From NCBI GenBank assembly GCA_039908345.1, contig JAMOBD010000042.1:1-50599 (forward strand): 50,599 bases of DNA, read 5' to 3'. The stretch comes from Magnetospirillum sp. WYHS-4 (GTDB lineage: Bacteria; Pseudomonadota; Alphaproteobacteria; Rhodospirillales; GLO-3). The notes below the pieces were generated by a model. That model did not search any database and was not told the origin of the DNA. It saw only the letters and a program-made list of their open reading frames with translations. A program made the position numbers and the translations under genes. Positions 6,379 to 36,906 of this stretch are shown here, in pieces. Numbering within the stretch: position 1 is the first letter of the stretch; every line of letters begins with the position of its first letter.

Positions 6379-7521
<1,143 letters not shown>

Positions 7522-7538
7522 CTTCCTCGATCCGGAAG

Positions 7539-7570
7539 GGCCGCCGCGGGTTTCCCTGCGGCGGCCTTTT
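7539..7570 (+). terminator. Intrinsic terminator after TRAP binding-protein genes
   Basis: A perfect 9-bp stem, GGCCGCCGC (7539-7547) with GCGGCGGCC (7558-7566), is followed at once by TTTT (7567-7570). It lies 18 bases after the stop of copy 2 and before the convergent dctM stop. Confidence 0.88.
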
Positions 7571-7587
7571 CGTTGTGCCGGCCGGTA

Positions 7588-9063
7588 TTACTTGGCGGGA
7601 GAGGAAGGGGGCTCGGAAGCGAAGGGCTCGACCGGTCCATAGTCCTCGTGGGGGACTTCGATGCGGATCTGGCTGGGATCGACCCTGCGGTCGCCGTCCA
7701 GCCCGCCGGTCACCAGGTCGGGGAAGGCGATCACGATCACCACCATGATGACCTGGATGACGACGAAGGGTACCGCGCCCCAATAGATATCCCCCGTGGT
7801 GACCTTGGGCATCAGGCGGCCGGTCACCTTGTCCAGGTAGTCGCTGCGCGGTGCCACGCTTCGCAGGTAGAATAGGGCGAAGCCGAAGGGGGGGTGCAGG
7901 AACGACGTCTGCAGGTTGACGCCCAGCAGGACGCCGAACCAGATCAGGTCGATTCCCAGCTTCTCGGCCACCGGCCCCAGCAAGGGCACCAGGATGAAGG
8001 CCAACTCGAAGAAGTCGAGGAAGAAGGCCAGGATGAACATCAAGGCGTTGACGAAAACGAGGAAGCCGAGCGGACCGCCGGGCAGGGCGGTCAGCAGATG
8101 CTCGACCCACAGATCGCCGTCGACGCCGCGGAACACCAGGGTGAAGACCGTGGACCCCACCAGGATGAAGATGACGAAGGTCGACAGCTTGGCCGTGGCG
8201 TCCAGGGCTTGGCGCAACAGGGACAAGTTGAGCTTCCGCTTGGCCAGCGCCAGGATCAGCGCGCCGGTGGCGCCCATGGCGCCGCCCTCGGTCGGGGTGG
8301 CGACGCCGATGAAGATGGTGCCCAGTACCAGGAAGATCAGAACCAGGGGTGGCATCAGCGAAAACACCACCCGGGCCAGCAGCTTCATCCCGTGCAAGCT
8401 GCGGGCCTCGCGCGGCAGGGCGGGGGCGGCGTTCGGCCGCACCAGGCTGATGATCAGGACATAGCCGGCATAGAGACCGGCCAGGGTCAGGCCGGGAATC
8501 ATGGCCCCCTTGTACATGTCGCCGACCGACTTGCCCAACTGGTCGGCCATGATGATGAGCACCAGGCTGGGCGGTATGATCTGGGCCAGCGTGCCCGATG
8601 CGGCGATCACCCCGGTGGCCAATCGGCGGTCGTAGCCGTAGCGGAGCATGATGGGCAGGGAGATCAGGCCCATGGAAATCACCGAGGCGGCGACCACACC
8701 CGTGGTGGCGGCCAGAAGGGCGCCGACGAAGACCGCGGCGAAGGCCAGGCCGCCGCGCACTGGGCCGAACAACTGCCCCACGGTGTCCAGCAAGTCTTCG
8801 GCCATGCCGCTGCGTTCCAGGATCAGGCCCATGAAGGTGAAGAACGGAATGGCCAGCAGGGTGTCGTTGCGCATGATGCCGAACACCCGCTGCGGCAGAG
8901 CCTGGAGCAGTTCCGGCTTGAACAGGCCCAACTCGATGCCCAAGACGGCGAAGCCGATGCCGATGGCCGAAAGGGCGAAAGCCACCGGATAGCCGAGCAG
9001 CAGAAACACCACCAAGGAGGAGAACATCAAGGGAGCCATGTTGGCGACGATCAGGTCCACCAC
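7588..9063 (-). CDS. dctM: TRAP transporter large permease subunit DctM
   Basis: A 491-aa very hydrophobic inner-membrane protein with about 12 membrane segments. It has family signatures such as IPFFTFMGLILERSG and TPTEGGAMGATGAL, plus a TGVVAASVISMGLISLP segment. DctM forms the sodium-coupled transport path of TRAP systems. At about 490 residues it belongs to the longer type that usually works with TakP-like receptors. It starts at GTG 9063, four bases after the dctQ stop, with GAAGGA upstream. The gene is convergent to the two binding-protein genes, an arrangement that separates receptor and membrane transcripts. Confidence 0.95.
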   Translation of the reverse strand: MVDLIVANMAPLMFSSLVVFLLLGYPVAFALSAIGIGFAVLGIELGLFKPELLQALPQRVFGIMRNDTLLAIPFFTFMGLILERSGMAEDLLDTVGQLFGPVRGGLAFAAVFVGALLAATTGVVAASVISMGLISLPIMLRYGYDRRLATGVIAASGTLAQIIPPSLVLIIMADQLGKSVGDMYKGAMIPGLTLAGLYAGYVLIISLVRPNAAPALPREARSLHGMKLLARVVFSLMPPLVLIFLVLGTIFIGVATPTEGGAMGATGALILALAKRKLNLSLLRQALDATAKLSTFVIFILVGSTVFTLVFRGVDGDLWVEHLLTALPGGPLGFLVFVNALMFILAFFLDFFELAFILVPLLGPVAEKLGIDLIWFGVLLGVNLQTSFLHPPFGFALFYLRSVAPRSDYLDKVTGRLMPKVTTGDIYWGAVPFVVIQVIMVVIVIAFPDLVTGGLDGDRRVDPSQIRIEVPHEDYGPVEPFASEPPSSPAK

Positions 9064-9067
9064 CGGC

Positions 9068-9625
9068 TCATTCCTTCTCGGCCAGCAGGTTGCCGTGGCC
9101 GCCCTGGGTGCCCGGATCGGGCAGGCGGCCGGCCAGGATGGCGACTTTCTTGATCAATTCCGACAGGCCCTGCAGGAGAAGCAGGGAAAATCCGACCGGA
9201 ATCAGCAGCTTCACCGGCCAGCGCACCAAGCCGCCGGCATCGCCCGACATTTCCGCCCCGGTGAAGGATTCCGTGAACATGGGCCAGGACAGCACGGCGA
9301 TGATGGCCGCCATGGGGAAGAGAAACAGCAAGGTGCCCACCACGTCGATCCAGAGCTGGACCCGGCGGGGAAAGCGCCCGGCCACCACGTCGATGCGGAT
9401 ATGCTCGTTACGCAGCAGGGTATAGCCGGCACAAAGCAGGTAGACGGCGGCGAACAGGTACCACTGCACTTCCAGCCATGCATTGGAACTCATGTTCAGG
9501 GAATAGCGGATGGTGGCGTTGCCGGCGCTGATCAGAACCATGACCAACACGAGCCAGTAGGCTCCATGGCCGACCCGTTCGTTCAGAATATCGATCCAGC
9601 GGCTGACGGCGAGCAACGCTTTCAC
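9068..9625 (-). CDS. dctQ: TRAP transporter small permease subunit DctQ
   Basis: A 185-aa four-helix inner-membrane protein. Hydrophobic segments lie at roughly 22-40, 52-70, 92-112 and 134-155. It contains the LEVQWYLFAAVYLLCAGY block and the NEHIRIDVV motif typical of DctQ. It pairs with DctM, whose gene begins 4 bases downstream. The start is GTG 9625; the ATG slightly upstream in the other frame hits a stop after four codons, so GTG is preferred. The gene lies 33 bases downstream of bpt, so bpt-dctQ read-through is possible only from the right. Confidence 0.92.
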   Translation of the reverse strand: MKALLAVSRWIDILNERVGHGAYWLVLVMVLISAGNATIRYSLNMSSNAWLEVQWYLFAAVYLLCAGYTLLRNEHIRIDVVAGRFPRRVQLWIDVVGTLLFLFPMAAIIAVLSWPMFTESFTGAEMSGDAGGLVRWPVKLLIPVGFSLLLLQGLSELIKKVAILAGRLPDPGTQGGHGNLLAEKE

Positions 9626-30411: not shown

Positions 30412-30708
30412 ATGAACCTGAACGTGAGCATCGACAACGACGGTTTCCTCAGCAATCCCTCAGACTGGTCGGAGATCATCGCGCGCGAAATGGCGGCGGA
30501 CGACGGTTTCGACATCAACGACGAACACTTGCGGCTCATCCATGAGGCGCGCGCCATGTACGAGCGCGACGGCGTCGTACCGCCGCTTCGGCGCTTCTGC
30601 AAGGACCTGGGCGTGACCAAGGACGCCCTCTATGGCCTATTCCTCACCGGCCCCATGAAGCTGATCTGCAAGTATGGCGGCCTGCCCAAGCCCACAGGCT
30701 GCACCTGA
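30412..30708 (+). CDS. dsrC: DsrC/TusE family sulfur-carrier protein
   Basis: A 98-aa protein of the DsrC family with the typical helix WSEIIAREMAADDGFDIND and PPLRRFCKDLGVTKDALYGLF. The C-terminal arm ends CKYGGLPKPTGCT, so both redox cysteines are present (penultimate Cys and the Cys 11 positions before it). TusE proteins of tRNA thiolation have only the penultimate one, so DsrC, a sulfur carrier for dissimilatory sulfite reductase, is the better name. No dsrAB or tus genes are in the window. AAGGAG precedes ATG 30412; the upstream in-frame ATG at 30340 is less likely. Confidence 0.88.
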   Translation: MNLNVSIDNDGFLSNPSDWSEIIAREMAADDGFDINDEHLRLIHEARAMYERDGVVPPLRRFCKDLGVTKDALYGLFLTGPMKLICKYGGLPKPTGCT

Positions 30709-30734
30709 CCCGGCCATTTGGCCTCGCCGTCCTC

Positions 30735-30764
30735 TTGTGGGAATTTGTCACAAAGAGCTAGAAT
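30735..30764 (+). promoter_or_regulatory. Possible sigma-70-type promoter for the binding-protein/kinase operon
   Basis: TTGTGG (30735-30740) and TAGAAT (30759-30764) are 18 bases apart, 42 bases upstream of ATG 30806. Between them lies the symmetric TTTGTCACAAA (30744-30754), a candidate repressor or activator site. This is pattern reading only. Confidence 0.35.
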
Positions 30765-30805
30765 GGCTTTGGGACAATTCCAAAGGCACGGAAAGGCGGG
30801 GTCTC

Positions 30806-31774
30806 ATGTCCAGGGTGGCTGTGGCAGCAGGGGCCGTGGTGGCGCTGCTCGCCCTGGCGGGAAGCGGCATGGCGGAAACGCTCCCTTCGCGGACTTGCCT
30901 TTACGTTTCCTCCTATCACCCCGGCTACCATTGGAACGACGGGATCGAGCGGGGCCTGGAAAAGTCCCTGGCCGGCGTCTGCCGGCTGGAACGCTTCTAC
31001 ATGGACACCAACCGCAATCCGGCCCCCGAATTCTCCCAGGCCAAGGGAGCCGAGGCCAAGGCCCTGATCGAGGCGGCGAAGCCCGATCTGGTTGTCGCCT
31101 GCGACGACAACGCCTCCAAGGACCTGGTCAAGCCCTTCCTCAAGGACGCCCCGATTCCGGTGGTCTTTTGCGGCGTCAACTGGACGGTCGCCGAGTACGG
31201 CTACCCTTATGCCAATACCACCGGCATGATCGAGGTCGCCCCCAACAAGGAAGTCGTCCAGGAAGCGAAAGCCCTGCTCAAGGGGGCCAGTTCCTTCGCC
31301 TTCCTGGCCGCCGACGTGCCGACCCAGCATAAGGAAGTCGCCCGCCTGGACGTCATCGCCAAGCGCGAGTCCCTGGAAATGCAGGCCCTTCTGGTCAAGA
31401 GCTTCGCCGACTGGCAGGCCGCCTTCCGCCAGGCCCAGGAACGGGATTTCGTCGTCCTCGGCAATCCCGTCGGCATTCCCGACTGGAACGGCCCTCTGGC
31501 AAAGACCTTCGTGGCTGCGGAATCCCGCAAGCTGACCACCTCCTTCGGGATCTTCATGCGGCCCTATTCCGTCTTTTCCATGGTCAACGTTCCCGACGAG
31601 CAGGGCGAGTGGGCGGGCGAGGCGGCCAAGCTGATCCTGGACGGCCGCAAGCCCGCCGACATTCCCATCGTCGCCAACCGGCGCTGGGACCTGTTCTTCA
31701 ATCCGGCCCTGGCGGCCAAGGCCGGCATCCACCTTCCCGACCATATCCTGCAGCGGGCGGTGAAGATTGACTGA
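30806..31774 (+). CDS. ABC-type substrate-binding protein (ABC_sub_bind family)
   Basis: A 322-aa periplasmic protein. The signal peptide covers residues 1-23 (LLALAGSGMAE). The mature chain begins LYVSSYHPGYHWNDGIERGL, and has DLVVACDDNASKDLV and IPVVFCGVNWTVAEYG, the two-lobed pattern of the tryptophan/tyrosine-type ABC_sub_bind family (YSCG-like). No permease or ATPase follows. Instead the stop overlaps the TTG start of a CHASE-domain histidine kinase by 8 bases, which suggests that it hands ligand to the kinase. ATG 30806 has AAGGCGGGG upstream; the frame from 30674 begins inside dsrC and is not used. Confidence 0.85.
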   Translation: MSRVAVAAGAVVALLALAGSGMAETLPSRTCLYVSSYHPGYHWNDGIERGLEKSLAGVCRLERFYMDTNRNPAPEFSQAKGAEAKALIEAAKPDLVVACDDNASKDLVKPFLKDAPIPVVFCGVNWTVAEYGYPYANTTGMIEVAPNKEVVQEAKALLKGASSFAFLAADVPTQHKEVARLDVIAKRESLEMQALLVKSFADWQAAFRQAQERDFVVLGNPVGIPDWNGPLAKTFVAAESRKLTTSFGIFMRPYSVFSMVNVPDEQGEWAGEAAKLILDGRKPADIPIVANRRWDLFFNPALAAKAGIHLPDHILQRAVKID

Positions 31775-33620
31775 AGAAAGAAAGACCGGTTTCTGGTATG
31801 CCGCAGCCGCCACCGCCGTGGCGGGCTTGGTGACGGCCGGTTTCCTCTTCGCCGCCCTGGCCTTCGTCCTCCAGGAAAGGCAAGCCGCCTTCCGCGCCGA
31901 TGCCGGACACCACGAACGCACCATGGAAGGCCAGCTATTGCGCCTGCTGGACGCCATGGGCCAGGCGATGACCTTCCACCAGACGATCCCCCGCGGCGGC
32001 TCCGACGATTTTCGTCTCTTTTCCCGGCAGATCATGCGCCGCTTTCCGTTCGTCGGCGGGATGGCCTTCGCGGTTGCGCTCGAGGGGGCGGACCGGGCCG
32101 CCTACGAGGAAGGCCGTCGCGAGGAAGGCATGCCGACCTTCGCCATCCGCGATCGATCGGGCGAACGGTTTGCCGTCGCTTCCGGCCGGGAAAGCTACAT
32201 GCCGCTCCAGTTCGCCGAACCCTTCGGACCCGATGTCGCGGTGCTGCTGGGCCTGGATCTTGCCCAAACCGAAGGTTTTCGCGAGGCCTTGCGGCTGGCG
32301 GCCACGGCGGGCAAGCCCATGCTGGTCCGCCTGCCCGGCCTCTTTTCCGAGTGGCACGAGTTCTGGATGATGCAGGCCGTCTACCGCGGCCGCGACCTGC
32401 CGGAGGCGGAAGCGGAACGGCTGGCCCGCTTGGGCGGGGTCCTGATGGTCCGGGTCGAGCCGGAAAAGGCCATCGCCCGCGAACTGGAACGCCTCGGCAA
32501 CATCGAATTCACCCTGCTCGCCTTGTCGTCCGACGGCAAGCCGATGTCCATCGTCGCCCACCGCGACGCCCGCAAGGCCCATGAACGCGCGTCGCCCATG
32601 CGCATGCTGACCCAGGAGGATACGGTGGCCGTGGGCGGCGTCGACCTGCAGTTCCGCTTCCGGCGCGACCTGCGCTATGCCGACCTGATGGGACCGCCGG
32701 TCTGGCTGGCGCTGGGGGCGGCGGGGGTGGTATCCTTGTTTCTCGCCCTGCTGACCCGGGAACACCTGCGCCGCCGTCGGGCCTTTGCCGCCCTGGACGA
32801 GCATCGGGCCCAATTGGAAATCCTGGTCGAGCAGCGGACGGCGGAACTGAAGCGCCAGAACGAGCGCTTGGAAGAATCCGCCCGCTTCGACCGCGAGGCG
32901 CGCTCCCAGGTCGAGGCCGCGCAGAAGGAGTTGCAGGAAAGCAACCAGGAACTGCAGCAGTTCGCTTACGCGGTTTCCCACGATTTGCAGGAGCCCCTGC
33001 GCACCGTTACGAACTACATGCAGATGCTGGAACGTCGCTTTTCCGACACGTTGGGCGACGACGGCCGCGAATTCATCGGCTTCGCTGCGGACGCCAGCCG
33101 GCGCATGCAGTCCATGATCCGCGATCTGTTGGAATATTCGCGCATCCAGACCCGTGCCGGCGACCTGAGGCCCGTCGACCTGGACAAGGTCCTGGCGGAG
33201 GTGGAACGGAACCTGGGGATGTCCATCGACGAGGCCGGGGCCAAACTGACCGTCAACCGCCCTCTGCCCATCCTGGTGGCCGACGAGACCCAGTTGGTTC
33301 GCCTGTTCCAAAATCTGATCGGCAACGCCATCAAGTACCGGCCGACCGACCGGACGCCCGAGATCGAGGTTCGGGCCGAGCAGATGGGCCACGAGTGGCG
33401 GTTCTCGCTATCCGACAATGGTATCGGGATCGATCCCAAGTACTTCGGGCGCATTTTTGGCGTTTTCACTCGGTTGCATACTCGCGAGGAGTATCCGGGG
33501 ACCGGGATCGGGCTCGCCCTGTGCAAGCGCATCGTCGAACGGCATGGCGGGAAAATTTCCGTGACATCGGAACCCGGCCGGGGGAGCACCTTCACCTTCA
33601 CCTTGCAGTCAAATGCGTGA
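31767..33620 (+). CDS. CHASE-domain membrane histidine kinase
   Basis: A 617-aa sensor kinase. Membrane helix about 10-36, periplasmic CHASE domain about 45-230 (FPFVGGMAFAVAL, REEGMPTFAIRD, ESYMPLQFAEPFG), second helix 311-330, then a long coiled coil (335-398), HisKA with His405 in YAVSHDLQEPLRT and HATPase (NLIGNAIKYRPTD, DNGIGIDPKYF, GTGIGLALCKRI). CHASE domains bind small ligands outside the membrane. It starts at TTG 31767 within the end of the binding-protein gene, so the two are translationally coupled. Its kinase core closely resembles that of the kinase at 24731-26689. No response regulator is adjacent. Confidence 0.9.
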   Translation: MTEERKTGFWYAAAATAVAGLVTAGFLFAALAFVLQERQAAFRADAGHHERTMEGQLLRLLDAMGQAMTFHQTIPRGGSDDFRLFSRQIMRRFPFVGGMAFAVALEGADRAAYEEGRREEGMPTFAIRDRSGERFAVASGRESYMPLQFAEPFGPDVAVLLGLDLAQTEGFREALRLAATAGKPMLVRLPGLFSEWHEFWMMQAVYRGRDLPEAEAERLARLGGVLMVRVEPEKAIARELERLGNIEFTLLALSSDGKPMSIVAHRDARKAHERASPMRMLTQEDTVAVGGVDLQFRFRRDLRYADLMGPPVWLALGAAGVVSLFLALLTREHLRRRRAFAALDEHRAQLEILVEQRTAELKRQNERLEESARFDREARSQVEAAQKELQESNQELQQFAYAVSHDLQEPLRTVTNYMQMLERRFSDTLGDDGREFIGFAADASRRMQSMIRDLLEYSRIQTRAGDLRPVDLDKVLAEVERNLGMSIDEAGAKLTVNRPLPILVADETQLVRLFQNLIGNAIKYRPTDRTPEIEVRAEQMGHEWRFSLSDNGIGIDPKYFGRIFGVFTRLHTREEYPGTGIGLALCKRIVERHGGKISVTSEPGRGSTFTFTLQSNA

Positions 33621-33662: not shown

Positions 33663-36257
33663 ATGATACGGAGGTACTTGGCGTCGGCGCGGGAGAAACC
33701 CAGCGCAGCCGCGCTGTTGGCGGCTGTGCTCGGGCTTTCTTGGCCGGCACTTGGGGCCGAATCGCGCATGAGCCCCGACCAGTACCTGTTCGAGGCGGTG
33801 CGCCGGAACGATCTGGCGGCCGCCCAGGCGGCGATAAGGGCGGGAGCCCGCGTCGATACTTTGGACGAGTGGGGCCTGACGGCGGCCGATGTCGCCCTCG
33901 ACAAGGGCTATTTCCCCATCGCCCGCTACCTGATGGACATGAAGGGAGACAGTGCGCCCGCCCGTCCGGTTCCACCACCGCCAGTTCCGGCGGTCGCAGC
34001 CGCTCCCCGCCCGTCGCCGTTTCCACCGACGCCTCCCGTATCCCCTCCTCCGATCGCCGTGGTGGAGCCGCCGCCGGTTCCCCTCCCGGCTGAAGCCGCC
34101 GTGACGGCGCCGTCTCCGCCGGTTCCTGTTCCGGTGGCACCTGGCGTCACGTTCCTGGACCGCCTGCAAGGCGAACTGCGGCGTGTTCTGAGCCTGGAGA
34201 CATCAATTCCTCCCCCCTCTCCGGAATCGGCCGACGGGCCGCCGCGTCTCCCGCCCGCCAAGACAGAGATAGCTCGACACGATCATCCGCAACCGGAACC
34301 GGCGCCTGTGGCGAGGGAAGGCTGGGCGCCCAAGGAGCTTAAGATCGCCACCCCGTCCGTTCCGCCCCCGCCGCCAGATACTTCGACCAAGGCCGAGGAG
34401 GCGCCAAAAAGGGAGGAGCCGGAATCCGCCGTCGTCGCCGAGTCCCCCGCTCCGGAGGCGCGTCGAGACGGGTTCTTGGCGCGGCTGTCGTCGGAATTGC
34501 GGCGGGTGATGAAAATCGATCCGTCGGCCAGCGTGGCCTCTATCGATTTACCCGAAGCGAAGGAATCCTGGGCCCCTAAGGCCGTGATCGTGCCCCCCGC
34601 TCCGGTTATCGAGACGCCGGTTCAGGTGACGGCCCCTCCCCCTGTCCCGCCTTCCCCTTCTCCGCCGTCGCCCACTACGGGAGAAGAGCCGGCGGTAACA
34701 AGGCAGGAGCCGGCTCCGGGACTTTTGTCGCGCCTGTTCTCCGGGCTCAAGGAGTCCCGGGGTGGGGACAAGGCTCCGCCACCAGACTCCGAGGCCAAGG
34801 ACGCATGGGCGCCTAGGACTGTGACGACTGAGCTCCCTTCCGAGCCTCCTCCCCAGCAGGTGGCCGCCCTCCCTCCCCCCACTTCCCCGTCTCCCGTGCC
34901 TACTCCGGCGGCGGAAGAGCCGGCGGCCAAGCCGGAACCGGGCCCCGGTCTGCTGTCGCGCCTGTTCAGCGGTCTCAAGGAGACTTTCGGCGGCGAAAAG
35001 GCGAAGCCTGCGACCGTTCCTGAATCCAAGCCTGCCCCGAAGCCGAAAAAGCGTTGGCTGCCCGTGGCCGAAGACCCCATCGCCACCGTCCCGCCGGAAG
35101 GGGGCGGGACGACGGGCTCTGGAAAGGTCCCGTCGGCTCTGACCAAGCTGGGCATTCCGGATATCGAGCAATACCTATCCGACGAGCCTTACCATCCGGG
35201 CGGGGTCGCCCAGACCGGGAGAGGGAAGCTTCCTCCCGCCTCCCAGGTGCCGCGTGACCCCTTCAGTCCCGGCATGCCGGTGGCGGGCGGTGTCCCCGGC
35301 CAACCCCCGGCCAGTGGCTTCGATCCACGTTTCGAACGGGGAGAGTCCCGGCGCGCCCCAGGGAACGGCGGCGGGTTAGCCGATGCCTTGGCTCCTTTGG
35401 AAGCGGGCGGCGGGACCGAGGCCGCCCCCCCCCAGGGTAGCGGCATCTTCGATCGCCTGAGCGAGTTCCTGAAGCCGCCCAGCCGCGAGCCTAACCGGAA
35501 AGCAGCCCCGCCTTCCGGCCTGTTCGAGGAAGCAGCCAAGGATTCGCCTTCCGAAAAGCCGGTTCAACTCGCCAAAGCCGCGTCCAAGGACAGGGAACCT
35601 GTCCCTCCTCCAGCCTTGCCGGCGGCTTCGGGAAGCATTATCGGATTGCCCTTCGTCCTTGCCGGGTCCTATAGCCTGGGCAAGGCTCTGCCGGACGGCA
35701 TCCAGGTTTCGACCACGGCCTACGGTCAGGCCTGCCTGTCGAAGGAACGGGGAACCGTCGTCTTCTGCCTGGAGCCTCTGGCTTGGCCCACCGGCATGCA
35801 GGTCCATTTCGACGTCAACACAGTTCTTTACCAGGGATTCCAGACCATCGTCCGCTACGACGCGGGCAAGGCAACCGCCTTCCATACCCTGTTCCAGGCT
35901 GGTTCCTTCGAGGCGGTGGTGGCCCATTTCACCGAGCTTTACGGCCCGCCGACCGATGCCTGGATGCGCCGGATCGCACCCCTGGGGTCCCCCGGCCAGG
36001 ATAACCCCTCCGTCTCCTGGCGCAGTCACGACGTGACCACGGGGCGGGTGTCATCCCTTGAAATCCGTGCTTTCGACGACTCTCGGGGCGGTTTTCCCGA
36101 TATGAACCACGGCGTCGTGTTGTTGCGCGATTCCCAGGGCAAGCCGATCTTCCCGCGCCTGTCCAACCTGGACTTGATGGTGATGAAGCCGGCTCCTGCC
36201 AAGCCGGGACCGGCGATCAGTAGCGCCCCCGCAATCCCCGTGCAAAAAGGCGAATGA
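33663..36257 (+). CDS. Large secreted ankyrin/proline-rich repeat protein
   Basis: An 864-aa protein I cannot assign to a known family. Residues 1-32 are a signal peptide. Residues 38-95 make up an ankyrin-like unit (YLFEAVRRNDLAAAQAAIRAG, DEWGLTAADVALDKGY, in part). About 100-650 is a Pro/Ala/Glu-rich region with a periodic pair of motifs: an amphipathic helix (FLDRLQGELRRVL 164, FLARLSSELRRVM 271, LLSRLFSGLK 354 and 430, IFDRLSEFLK 595) and a tryptophan site (WAPK 221 and 303, WAPR 382, WLPV 465) spaced 82, 79 and 83 residues. The last 200 residues look globular (GIQVSTTAYGQACLS, VHFDVNTVLYQG). Possibly a periplasmic scaffold that binds several partners. It overlaps the convergent next gene by 41 bases. 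Confidence 0.85.
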   Translation: MIRRYLASAREKPSAAALLAAVLGLSWPALGAESRMSPDQYLFEAVRRNDLAAAQAAIRAGARVDTLDEWGLTAADVALDKGYFPIARYLMDMKGDSAPARPVPPPPVPAVAAAPRPSPFPPTPPVSPPPIAVVEPPPVPLPAEAAVTAPSPPVPVPVAPGVTFLDRLQGELRRVLSLETSIPPPSPESADGPPRLPPAKTEIARHDHPQPEPAPVAREGWAPKELKIATPSVPPPPPDTSTKAEEAPKREEPESAVVAESPAPEARRDGFLARLSSELRRVMKIDPSASVASIDLPEAKESWAPKAVIVPPAPVIETPVQVTAPPPVPPSPSPPSPTTGEEPAVTRQEPAPGLLSRLFSGLKESRGGDKAPPPDSEAKDAWAPRTVTTELPSEPPPQQVAALPPPTSPSPVPTPAAEEPAAKPEPGPGLLSRLFSGLKETFGGEKAKPATVPESKPAPKPKKRWLPVAEDPIATVPPEGGGTTGSGKVPSALTKLGIPDIEQYLSDEPYHPGGVAQTGRGKLPPASQVPRDPFSPGMPVAGGVPGQPPASGFDPRFERGESRRAPGNGGGLADALAPLEAGGGTEAAPPQGSGIFDRLSEFLKPPSREPNRKAAPPSGLFEEAAKDSPSEKPVQLAKAASKDREPVPPPALPAASGSIIGLPFVLAGSYSLGKALPDGIQVSTTAYGQACLSKERGTVVFCLEPLAWPTGMQVHFDVNTVLYQGFQTIVRYDAGKATAFHTLFQAGSFEAVVAHFTELYGPPTDAWMRRIAPLGSPGQDNPSVSWRSHDVTTGRVSSLEIRAFDDSRGGFPDMNHGVVLLRDSQGKPIFPRLSNLDLMVMKPAPAKPGPAISSAPAIPVQKGE

Positions 36258-36906
36258 GACCAAGCGTTCCCCGTTGGGTCCGGTCCGGACGGGCCAGATA
36301 GGTCTCGGCCAAGGTGGCCGGCAGCAAAGCCGGCAAAGCGGCTTTCGGCGGACGTGGCGCCAGTCGGCGCGCCTCGGCGAGATGGCCTAGGGCGAGCGTC
36401 GTCTCCCAAGGAATTCGCCCCCGCCGCGCCAAGTCCACCAATCCCCAGGCGATGCCCACCCGATGGCCGGCCTCGGCCACCGGGCCGTCGCGGACCCCCA
36501 GGACTTGAAGGGCCAACAGCGTCAGTGTACCGGCCGTCGCCTGGGCCAAGCCTTCCGAATCGTCCGGCGGCCCGTCGGCCAAGTCGGCTTGATGACCATC
36601 CAGCAGGCGGTCGAACAGAGACCGCTCCAGGCCGTGGCGGGCGATGGTCTCGGCCAAGGCCTCTGCGGTCGGCTGGCGGGGCGGATGGCCGGCGAAGACG
36701 GATTCCACGGAATCCCGCCACCATTGCAACCGGATCTGCCGTAGCAGCGGTTCCCGCGCCCGGTGGCGGATCTGGAACAATTCGGCCCCCAGAGCCAGAA
36801 GGGCGAAGAGGCCTTCCCGCTCCACCGCCGGGGCGGCCAGGGCACAAAGAAAGCGGTCGTTGTCGAGGCGGCGGGCCAGGGCGCCGCAAGGGGACAGGGA
36901 AGCCAT
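36217..36906 (-). CDS. Squalene/phytoene synthase-like protein (NDUFAF6-like)
   Basis: A 229-aa helical protein of the squalene/phytoene synthase fold. The segment NDRFLCALAAPAVEREGLFAL and REPLLRQIRLQWWRDSVESV match the short family that includes mitochondrial NDUFAF6, a complex I assembly factor. The Asp-rich DxxxD motifs needed for prenyl-diphosphate chemistry are not visible, which argues against a real synthase. It is also shorter than the usual 270-290 residues. Complex I assembly is thus inferred. It overlaps the tail of the repeat protein by 41 bases and is divergent from sodB. Confidence 0.78.
   Translation of the reverse strand: MASLSPCGALARRLDNDRFLCALAAPAVEREGLFALLALGAELFQIRHRAREPLLRQIRLQWWRDSVESVFAGHPPRQPTAEALAETIARHGLERSLFDRLLDGHQADLADGPPDDSEGLAQATAGTLTLLALQVLGVRDGPVAEAGHRVGIAWGLVDLARRGRIPWETTLALGHLAEARRLAPRPPKAALPALLPATLAETYLARPDRTQRGTLGLIRLFARGLRGRY

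Follow-up and report, generated by a model that had tools for sequence, protein, structure and literature searches.

A predicted exported proline-rich protein of Magnetospirillum with repeated helix and tryptophan motifs belongs to an unnamed protein family of an alphaproteobacterial order

The stretch of DNA analysed here, referred to as the window, comprises 50,599 nucleotides from Magnetospirillum sp. WYHS-4. It carries an open reading frame on the forward strand that begins at the first start codon past an upstream stop and encodes a protein of 864 amino acids. This protein is composed of a signal peptide, a two-repeat ankyrin unit, a 557-residue proline-rich linker and a C-terminal domain of approximately residues 657-846. 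The gene, its principal parts and the gene that follows it are located as listed.

33663-36257, plus strand: whole gene, 864 amino acids (open reading frame; orthologues in related genomes)
33663-33758, plus strand: Sec-type signal peptide, residues 1-32 (sequence itself; homologues alike)
33774-33950, plus strand: ankyrin unit of two helix pairs, residues 38-96 (AF2 and the Ank_4 profile)
35631-36200, plus strand: C-terminal domain, residues 657-846 (alignment of 39 sequences; structure prediction)
36217-36906, minus strand: squalene/phytoene-synthase-family protein, convergent neighbor (Pfam SQS_PSY, 5.3e-30)

The coding regions of the 864-residue protein and of its SQS_PSY neighbor overlap by 41 bases in the window. 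Among the homologous loci fetched, 23 show the same tail-to-tail arrangement, with 24 family genes, and in 20 of these the 3' gap to the SQS_PSY gene measures -20 to 170 bases. Genes for trmFO (GIDA family), DUF498, SecF, SecD and YajC, and often superoxide dismutase, lie nearby in the relatives' loci. This conserved gene place establishes that the genes are orthologous, and relatives share the architecture as well. Because the SQS_PSY gene is convergent, the two genes are not co-transcribed and form no operon, and synteny served only to establish orthology; a functional link between them was considered and rejected, since opposite orientation gives no reason to infer joint function. The SQS_PSY-family and DUF498 neighbors presumably resemble NDUFAF6 and NDUFAF3, two assembly factors of mitochondrial complex I. 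Directly upstream, at 30674-33620 on the plus strand of the window, the gene for an ABC_sub_bind periplasmic protein overlaps that of a CHASE-domain histidine kinase, and the two are likely a sensor pair; this pair is not conserved beside the homologues.

A search of 60 related genomes found the protein in 44, and a profile of the C-terminal domain detected it in 106 of 248 genomes and 57 of the 101 genera sampled in the order. In a class-wide draw the family appeared in 5 of 385 genomes, one of which was the window's own. The named records are mostly Rhodospirillales, Rhodospirillaceae, Thalassospiraceae and Magnetovibrio assemblies. A scan of genome contigs with the single protein gave no matches because several of its patterns were drawn from the variable linker; the scan required an alignment of the C-terminal domain, the first of which, with 14 rows, was too diverse to use. 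Phage or plasmid origin was rejected, as no family match was found on plasmids or phages. The nearest relative (L031/L071) comes from a genome of the same taxonomic family (G001) and groups with the window protein at 98% SH-aLRT in a quick tree. The window gene is therefore a member of an unnamed bacterial family that is spread across the order and has a motif and a domain of its own. Our literature search found no papers on this family, in agreement with the preliminary description of the locus, which knew of no described family with such a layout.

More than one family gene was noticed in two genomes. A second, divergent copy in the window's own genome (G000) is divided between contigs C45 (L064:3-968, minus strand) and C35 (L063:2-1147, plus strand); its 5' part stops at one contig edge and its 3' part at another, so that this is apparently one gene cut by the assembly, and it has helices of the GLFDKIKGVF and GIMDRLKGIF types. 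Another genome (G026) encodes two members in tandem (L045:5789-6802 and 6854-9388), the first with an acidic Asp/Glu-rich stretch ahead of the C-terminal domain.

The signal peptide, read by eye, shows a basic n-region, a AAALLAAVLGLSW core and an A-x-A-like site, and is likely cut after ALGA (PALGA-ESR). The ankyrin unit that follows is predicted by AF2 as four helices (residues 38-47, 51-59, 74-80 and 84-96) with pLDDT of 94-97 over residues 41-90. The Ank_4 match of the window protein alone has an E-value of 0.0057 and 17.4 bits, under the Pfam cut-off of 22.7; the same Pfam profile matches 15 of 17 family members, at best with 1.2e-7, so the ankyrin assignment is weak for the window alone and firm for the family. 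An ankyrin unit at the start, as originally described, is thus present in the window protein but absent from one branch (L053, L054, L055 and L056), which leaves three constant parts in the family: signal peptide, motif string and C-terminal domain. The four members of this branch start instead with (D/N)PFxPxxxxPxxP segments, repeated in L056, and the gene following L053 encodes a subtilase (Peptidase_S8).

The C-terminal region was expected to be globular, and it is indeed predicted to fold as one domain, with pLDDT 86 and pTM 0.82 when modeled from 39 sequences and pLDDT near 90 in the full-protein AF2 prediction. Over the 39 sequences it has 22 invariant columns, which include a Cys pair (C691/C702) as well as R, D, N and E residues, and it contains the charged stretch L-E-x-R-x-F-D-D-x-R-G-G-F-P-D. 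The domain probably holds a disulfide. The signal peptide and the invariant Cys pair both suit the periplasm, and it is these two features that suggest a periplasmic location. No profile in Pfam, NCBIfam or PHROGs matches the domain. Nothing significant was found in PDB either by sequence (best E-value 0.086) or by fold (best Foldseek E-value 0.066, TM-scores under 0.35), and the assignment of a named fold was dropped for this reason.

The linker carries two kinds of short motif, which are listed in order along the protein.

34152-34190, plus strand: helix motif 1, FLDRLQGELRRVL, residues 164-176 (pattern; AF2 helix)
34323-34349, plus strand: tryptophan motif 1, WAPKELKIA, residues 221-229 (pattern; family comparison)
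34473-34511, plus strand: helix motif 2, FLARLSSELRRVM, residues 271-283 (pattern; AF2 helix)
34569-34595, plus strand: tryptophan motif 2, WAPKAVIVP, residues 303-311 (pattern; family comparison)
34722-34760, plus strand: helix motif 3, LLSRLFSGLKESR, residues 354-366 (pattern; AF2 helix)
34806-34832, plus strand: tryptophan motif 3, WAPRTVTTE, residues 382-390 (pattern; family comparison)
34950-34988, plus strand: helix motif 4, LLSRLFSGLKETF, residues 430-442 (pattern; not helical in AF2)
35055-35081, plus strand: degenerate tryptophan site, WLPVAEDPI, residues 465-473, not WAPK (pattern)
35445-35483, plus strand: helix motif 5, IFDRLSEFLKPPS, residues 595-607 (pattern; same place as SLFDQLGNILKPL in the relative L031)

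All five helix sites noticed previously are real: (F/L)LxRLxxxL is matched exactly at residues 164, 271, 354 and 430, while the site at 595 is a close variant, IFDRLSEFLK. Of the four WAP(K/R) sites reported with them, those at 221, 303 and 382 stand, but the one at 465 reads WLPV. There are four W-P sites in the window linker, where 0.17 are expected in shuffles. The large hydrophobic residues (F/L/I/M/W/Y) of this linker total 67, with 26 in the 65 helix-motif positions, 9 in the 36 tryptophan-motif positions and 32 in the remaining 456 residues. When full-protein AF2 was run on the window protein with 16 relatives, it placed helices at residues 164-176, 266-282 and 354-363 within an otherwise coil linker; the helices at 430 and 595 were not predicted, and pLDDT was low throughout the linker, between the folded ends.

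Self-alignment of the approximately 80-residue unit revealed significant periodicity when compared with composition-preserving shuffles (n=500). The pairs u3-u4 (z=10.9), u2-u3 (z=7.1), u1-u2 (z=4.7) and u1-u3 (z=4.7) were each reached by 0 of 500 shuffles, and the weaker pairs u1-u4 (z 2.9) and u2-u4 (z 2.7) by 7-8 of 500. The shuffle comparisons, together with the motif model described below, reject chance periodicity. A ribonuclease E match at residues 383-457 (E-value 0.0017, 16 bits against a cut-off of 908) was dismissed as compositional. No DNA-level tandem repeat is left in the gene, and the repeats are therefore old.

A 12-position model built from the window's five helices only identifies 48 sites in the remaining linkers of the family (the window and L071 left out of the count), compared with 1.5 on average in shuffled linkers and 6 in 93 globular neighbor proteins of similar total length. 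At the first step of iteration the motif is found in 38 proteins, in linkers too diverged to align. Upon iteration the model settles on G-F-[FL]-D-[RK]-L-x-[DGN]-[LF]-[FL], returns exactly the five reported sites in the window, and finds 192 sites in 65 of 75 linkers, a number inflated by training and shared ancestry, for which reason the window-trained count is the fair test. For the tryptophan motif, W-[ASTG]-x-[KRT]-x-[VIL], there are 38 sites among 26 other members versus 2.8 in shuffles, and in many members one copy lies 10-15 residues ahead of the C-terminal domain. Copy number varies: there are 4 tryptophan sites in the window and 7 in the nearest relative, helices reach seven in L056, L107 and L109, and, by pattern, the helix motif is scarce or missing in some members. 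A third short motif, [ND]-P-F-[ADSP], was seen 42 times in 22 linkers (for example in L037, L051 and L056) versus 3.6 times in shuffles.

Both motifs are thus present in the homologues in varying number, a result in favor of the preliminary description, which had suggested this check. Its proposal of four or five copies of an 80-residue unit holds within the window, where most unit pairs exceed all shuffles, but a family-wide unit of this length is unsupported: the short motifs alone are kept across the family, and only the window's lineage shows the strict 80-residue unit. The original observation is confirmed, and its interpretation is supported and widened from one protein to a family.

These data bear on the possibility that the linker is only a spacer under low selection, whose motif periodicity reflects local duplication without function. 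Proline/alanine-rich sequence tolerates duplication, and the nearest relative has a recent-looking one, with QSWAPKVVPDPAP present twice. However, the helix motif is retained in linkers that can no longer be aligned, and it stays in the window gene where the DNA repeats are gone; this explanation is already disfavored and we consider it very improbable.

In our best reading, the 864-residue protein is an exported, periplasmic multivalent scaffold, a proposal that we regard as about equally balanced between being right and wrong. Once the signal peptide is removed, two folded ends, an ankyrin head and a C-terminal domain that probably holds its disulfide, would be joined by an extended proline-rich chain, the few hydrophobic residues of which are concentrated in the amphipathic helix and in a peptide of the form W-[AST]-x-[KRT]-x-V. 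Each of these motifs could dock weakly on a folded partner, with avidity and reach across the envelope arising from repetition. The family-wide motif, the placement of hydrophobic residues, the coil linker between folded ends and the varying copy number favor a scaffold, while the low AF2 confidence of the linker, the two of five helices that were not predicted, the members with few motifs and the convergent neighbor count against it.

The charge of the motifs is relevant to a different role, in which the amphipathic helices are membrane anchors and, as weak repeated targeting helices, lay the chain along the periplasm-facing leaflet. The helix motifs have hydrophobic moments of 0.28-0.72 and moderate hydrophobicity, the copies in the window and L071 are mostly net positive (+1 to +4, with window copy 5 at 0), and GLLSRLFSGLK in the window is presumably similar to the MinD tail and other short helices that target bacterial membranes. 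Across the family, however, Asp is the commonest residue at motif positions 2 and 6 and many copies carry a net charge close to zero, which is unusual for binding to acidic lipids, and this role leaves the tryptophan motif unexplained; we think it unlikely, if worth keeping in mind. Conserved Asp and R/K set between hydrophobic residues, with near-zero charge in many copies, seem to speak more for a protein groove than for simple lipid binding.

The motifs might also be intramolecular or self-association ligands that dock on the protein's own C-terminal domain or on neighboring copies to build networks or clusters. Three members that lack the ankyrin head (L053, L055 and L056) keep helices and C-terminal domain together, so that no folded part other than this domain is constantly available, and it has many invariant charged residues. 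On the other hand, AF2 confidence is not raised for the helix nearest to the domain, and in some members the domain is accompanied by few helices or none. We judge self-association rather improbable, and return to a scaffold as the preferred reading. In its most novel form, this reading would make the family a class of periplasmic multivalent scaffold not described before and general within one alphaproteobacterial order: GFFDRL-type helices and tryptophan peptides, adjustable in number along a disordered chain, would assemble an envelope complex, and the C-terminal domain would have a new fold; we offer this only tentatively, as a possibility more doubtful than the scaffold reading itself.

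Family libraries read the window protein only as a weak ankyrin match. It shares two canonical N-terminal helix pairs with the ankyrin repeat families (Pfam Ank_4, Ank_2), but it appears to be exported, has two repeats only, which make up less than one tenth of the protein, and belongs to a family in which one branch lacks them. The C-terminal domain resembles two predicted phage proteins, the lipoprotein BFVD A0A5Q2F5G3 and A0A8S5T817, with Foldseek E-values of 5e-4 to 1e-3 and a probability of 1.00, but with TM-scores of only 0.33-0.43 and 10% identity, and no sequence relatives were found in phage records. TonB-like periplasm-spanning proteins carry a folded C-terminal domain on a proline-rich chain in the periplasm, as is proposed for the window protein. 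In contrast to their uncleaved N-terminal anchor, the start of the window protein looks by eye like a cleavable signal peptide; it also has an ankyrin head and repeated helix and tryptophan motifs, and scans of Pfam and NCBIfam detected no TonB C-terminal domain. Eukaryotic signaling offers well-known examples of disordered chains bearing repeated short linear motifs, which are, to our knowledge, little documented in the bacterial periplasm. The window family is like such scaffolds in general in its weak repeated motifs, proline-rich spacing and variable copy number, and differs from them in that its motifs, apparent exported location and C-terminal domain are undescribed. Here one motif-bearing chain persists throughout an order while its motif number varies; it provides an exact motif that can be searched for, and a "proline-rich hypothetical protein" becomes a testable binding hypothesis.
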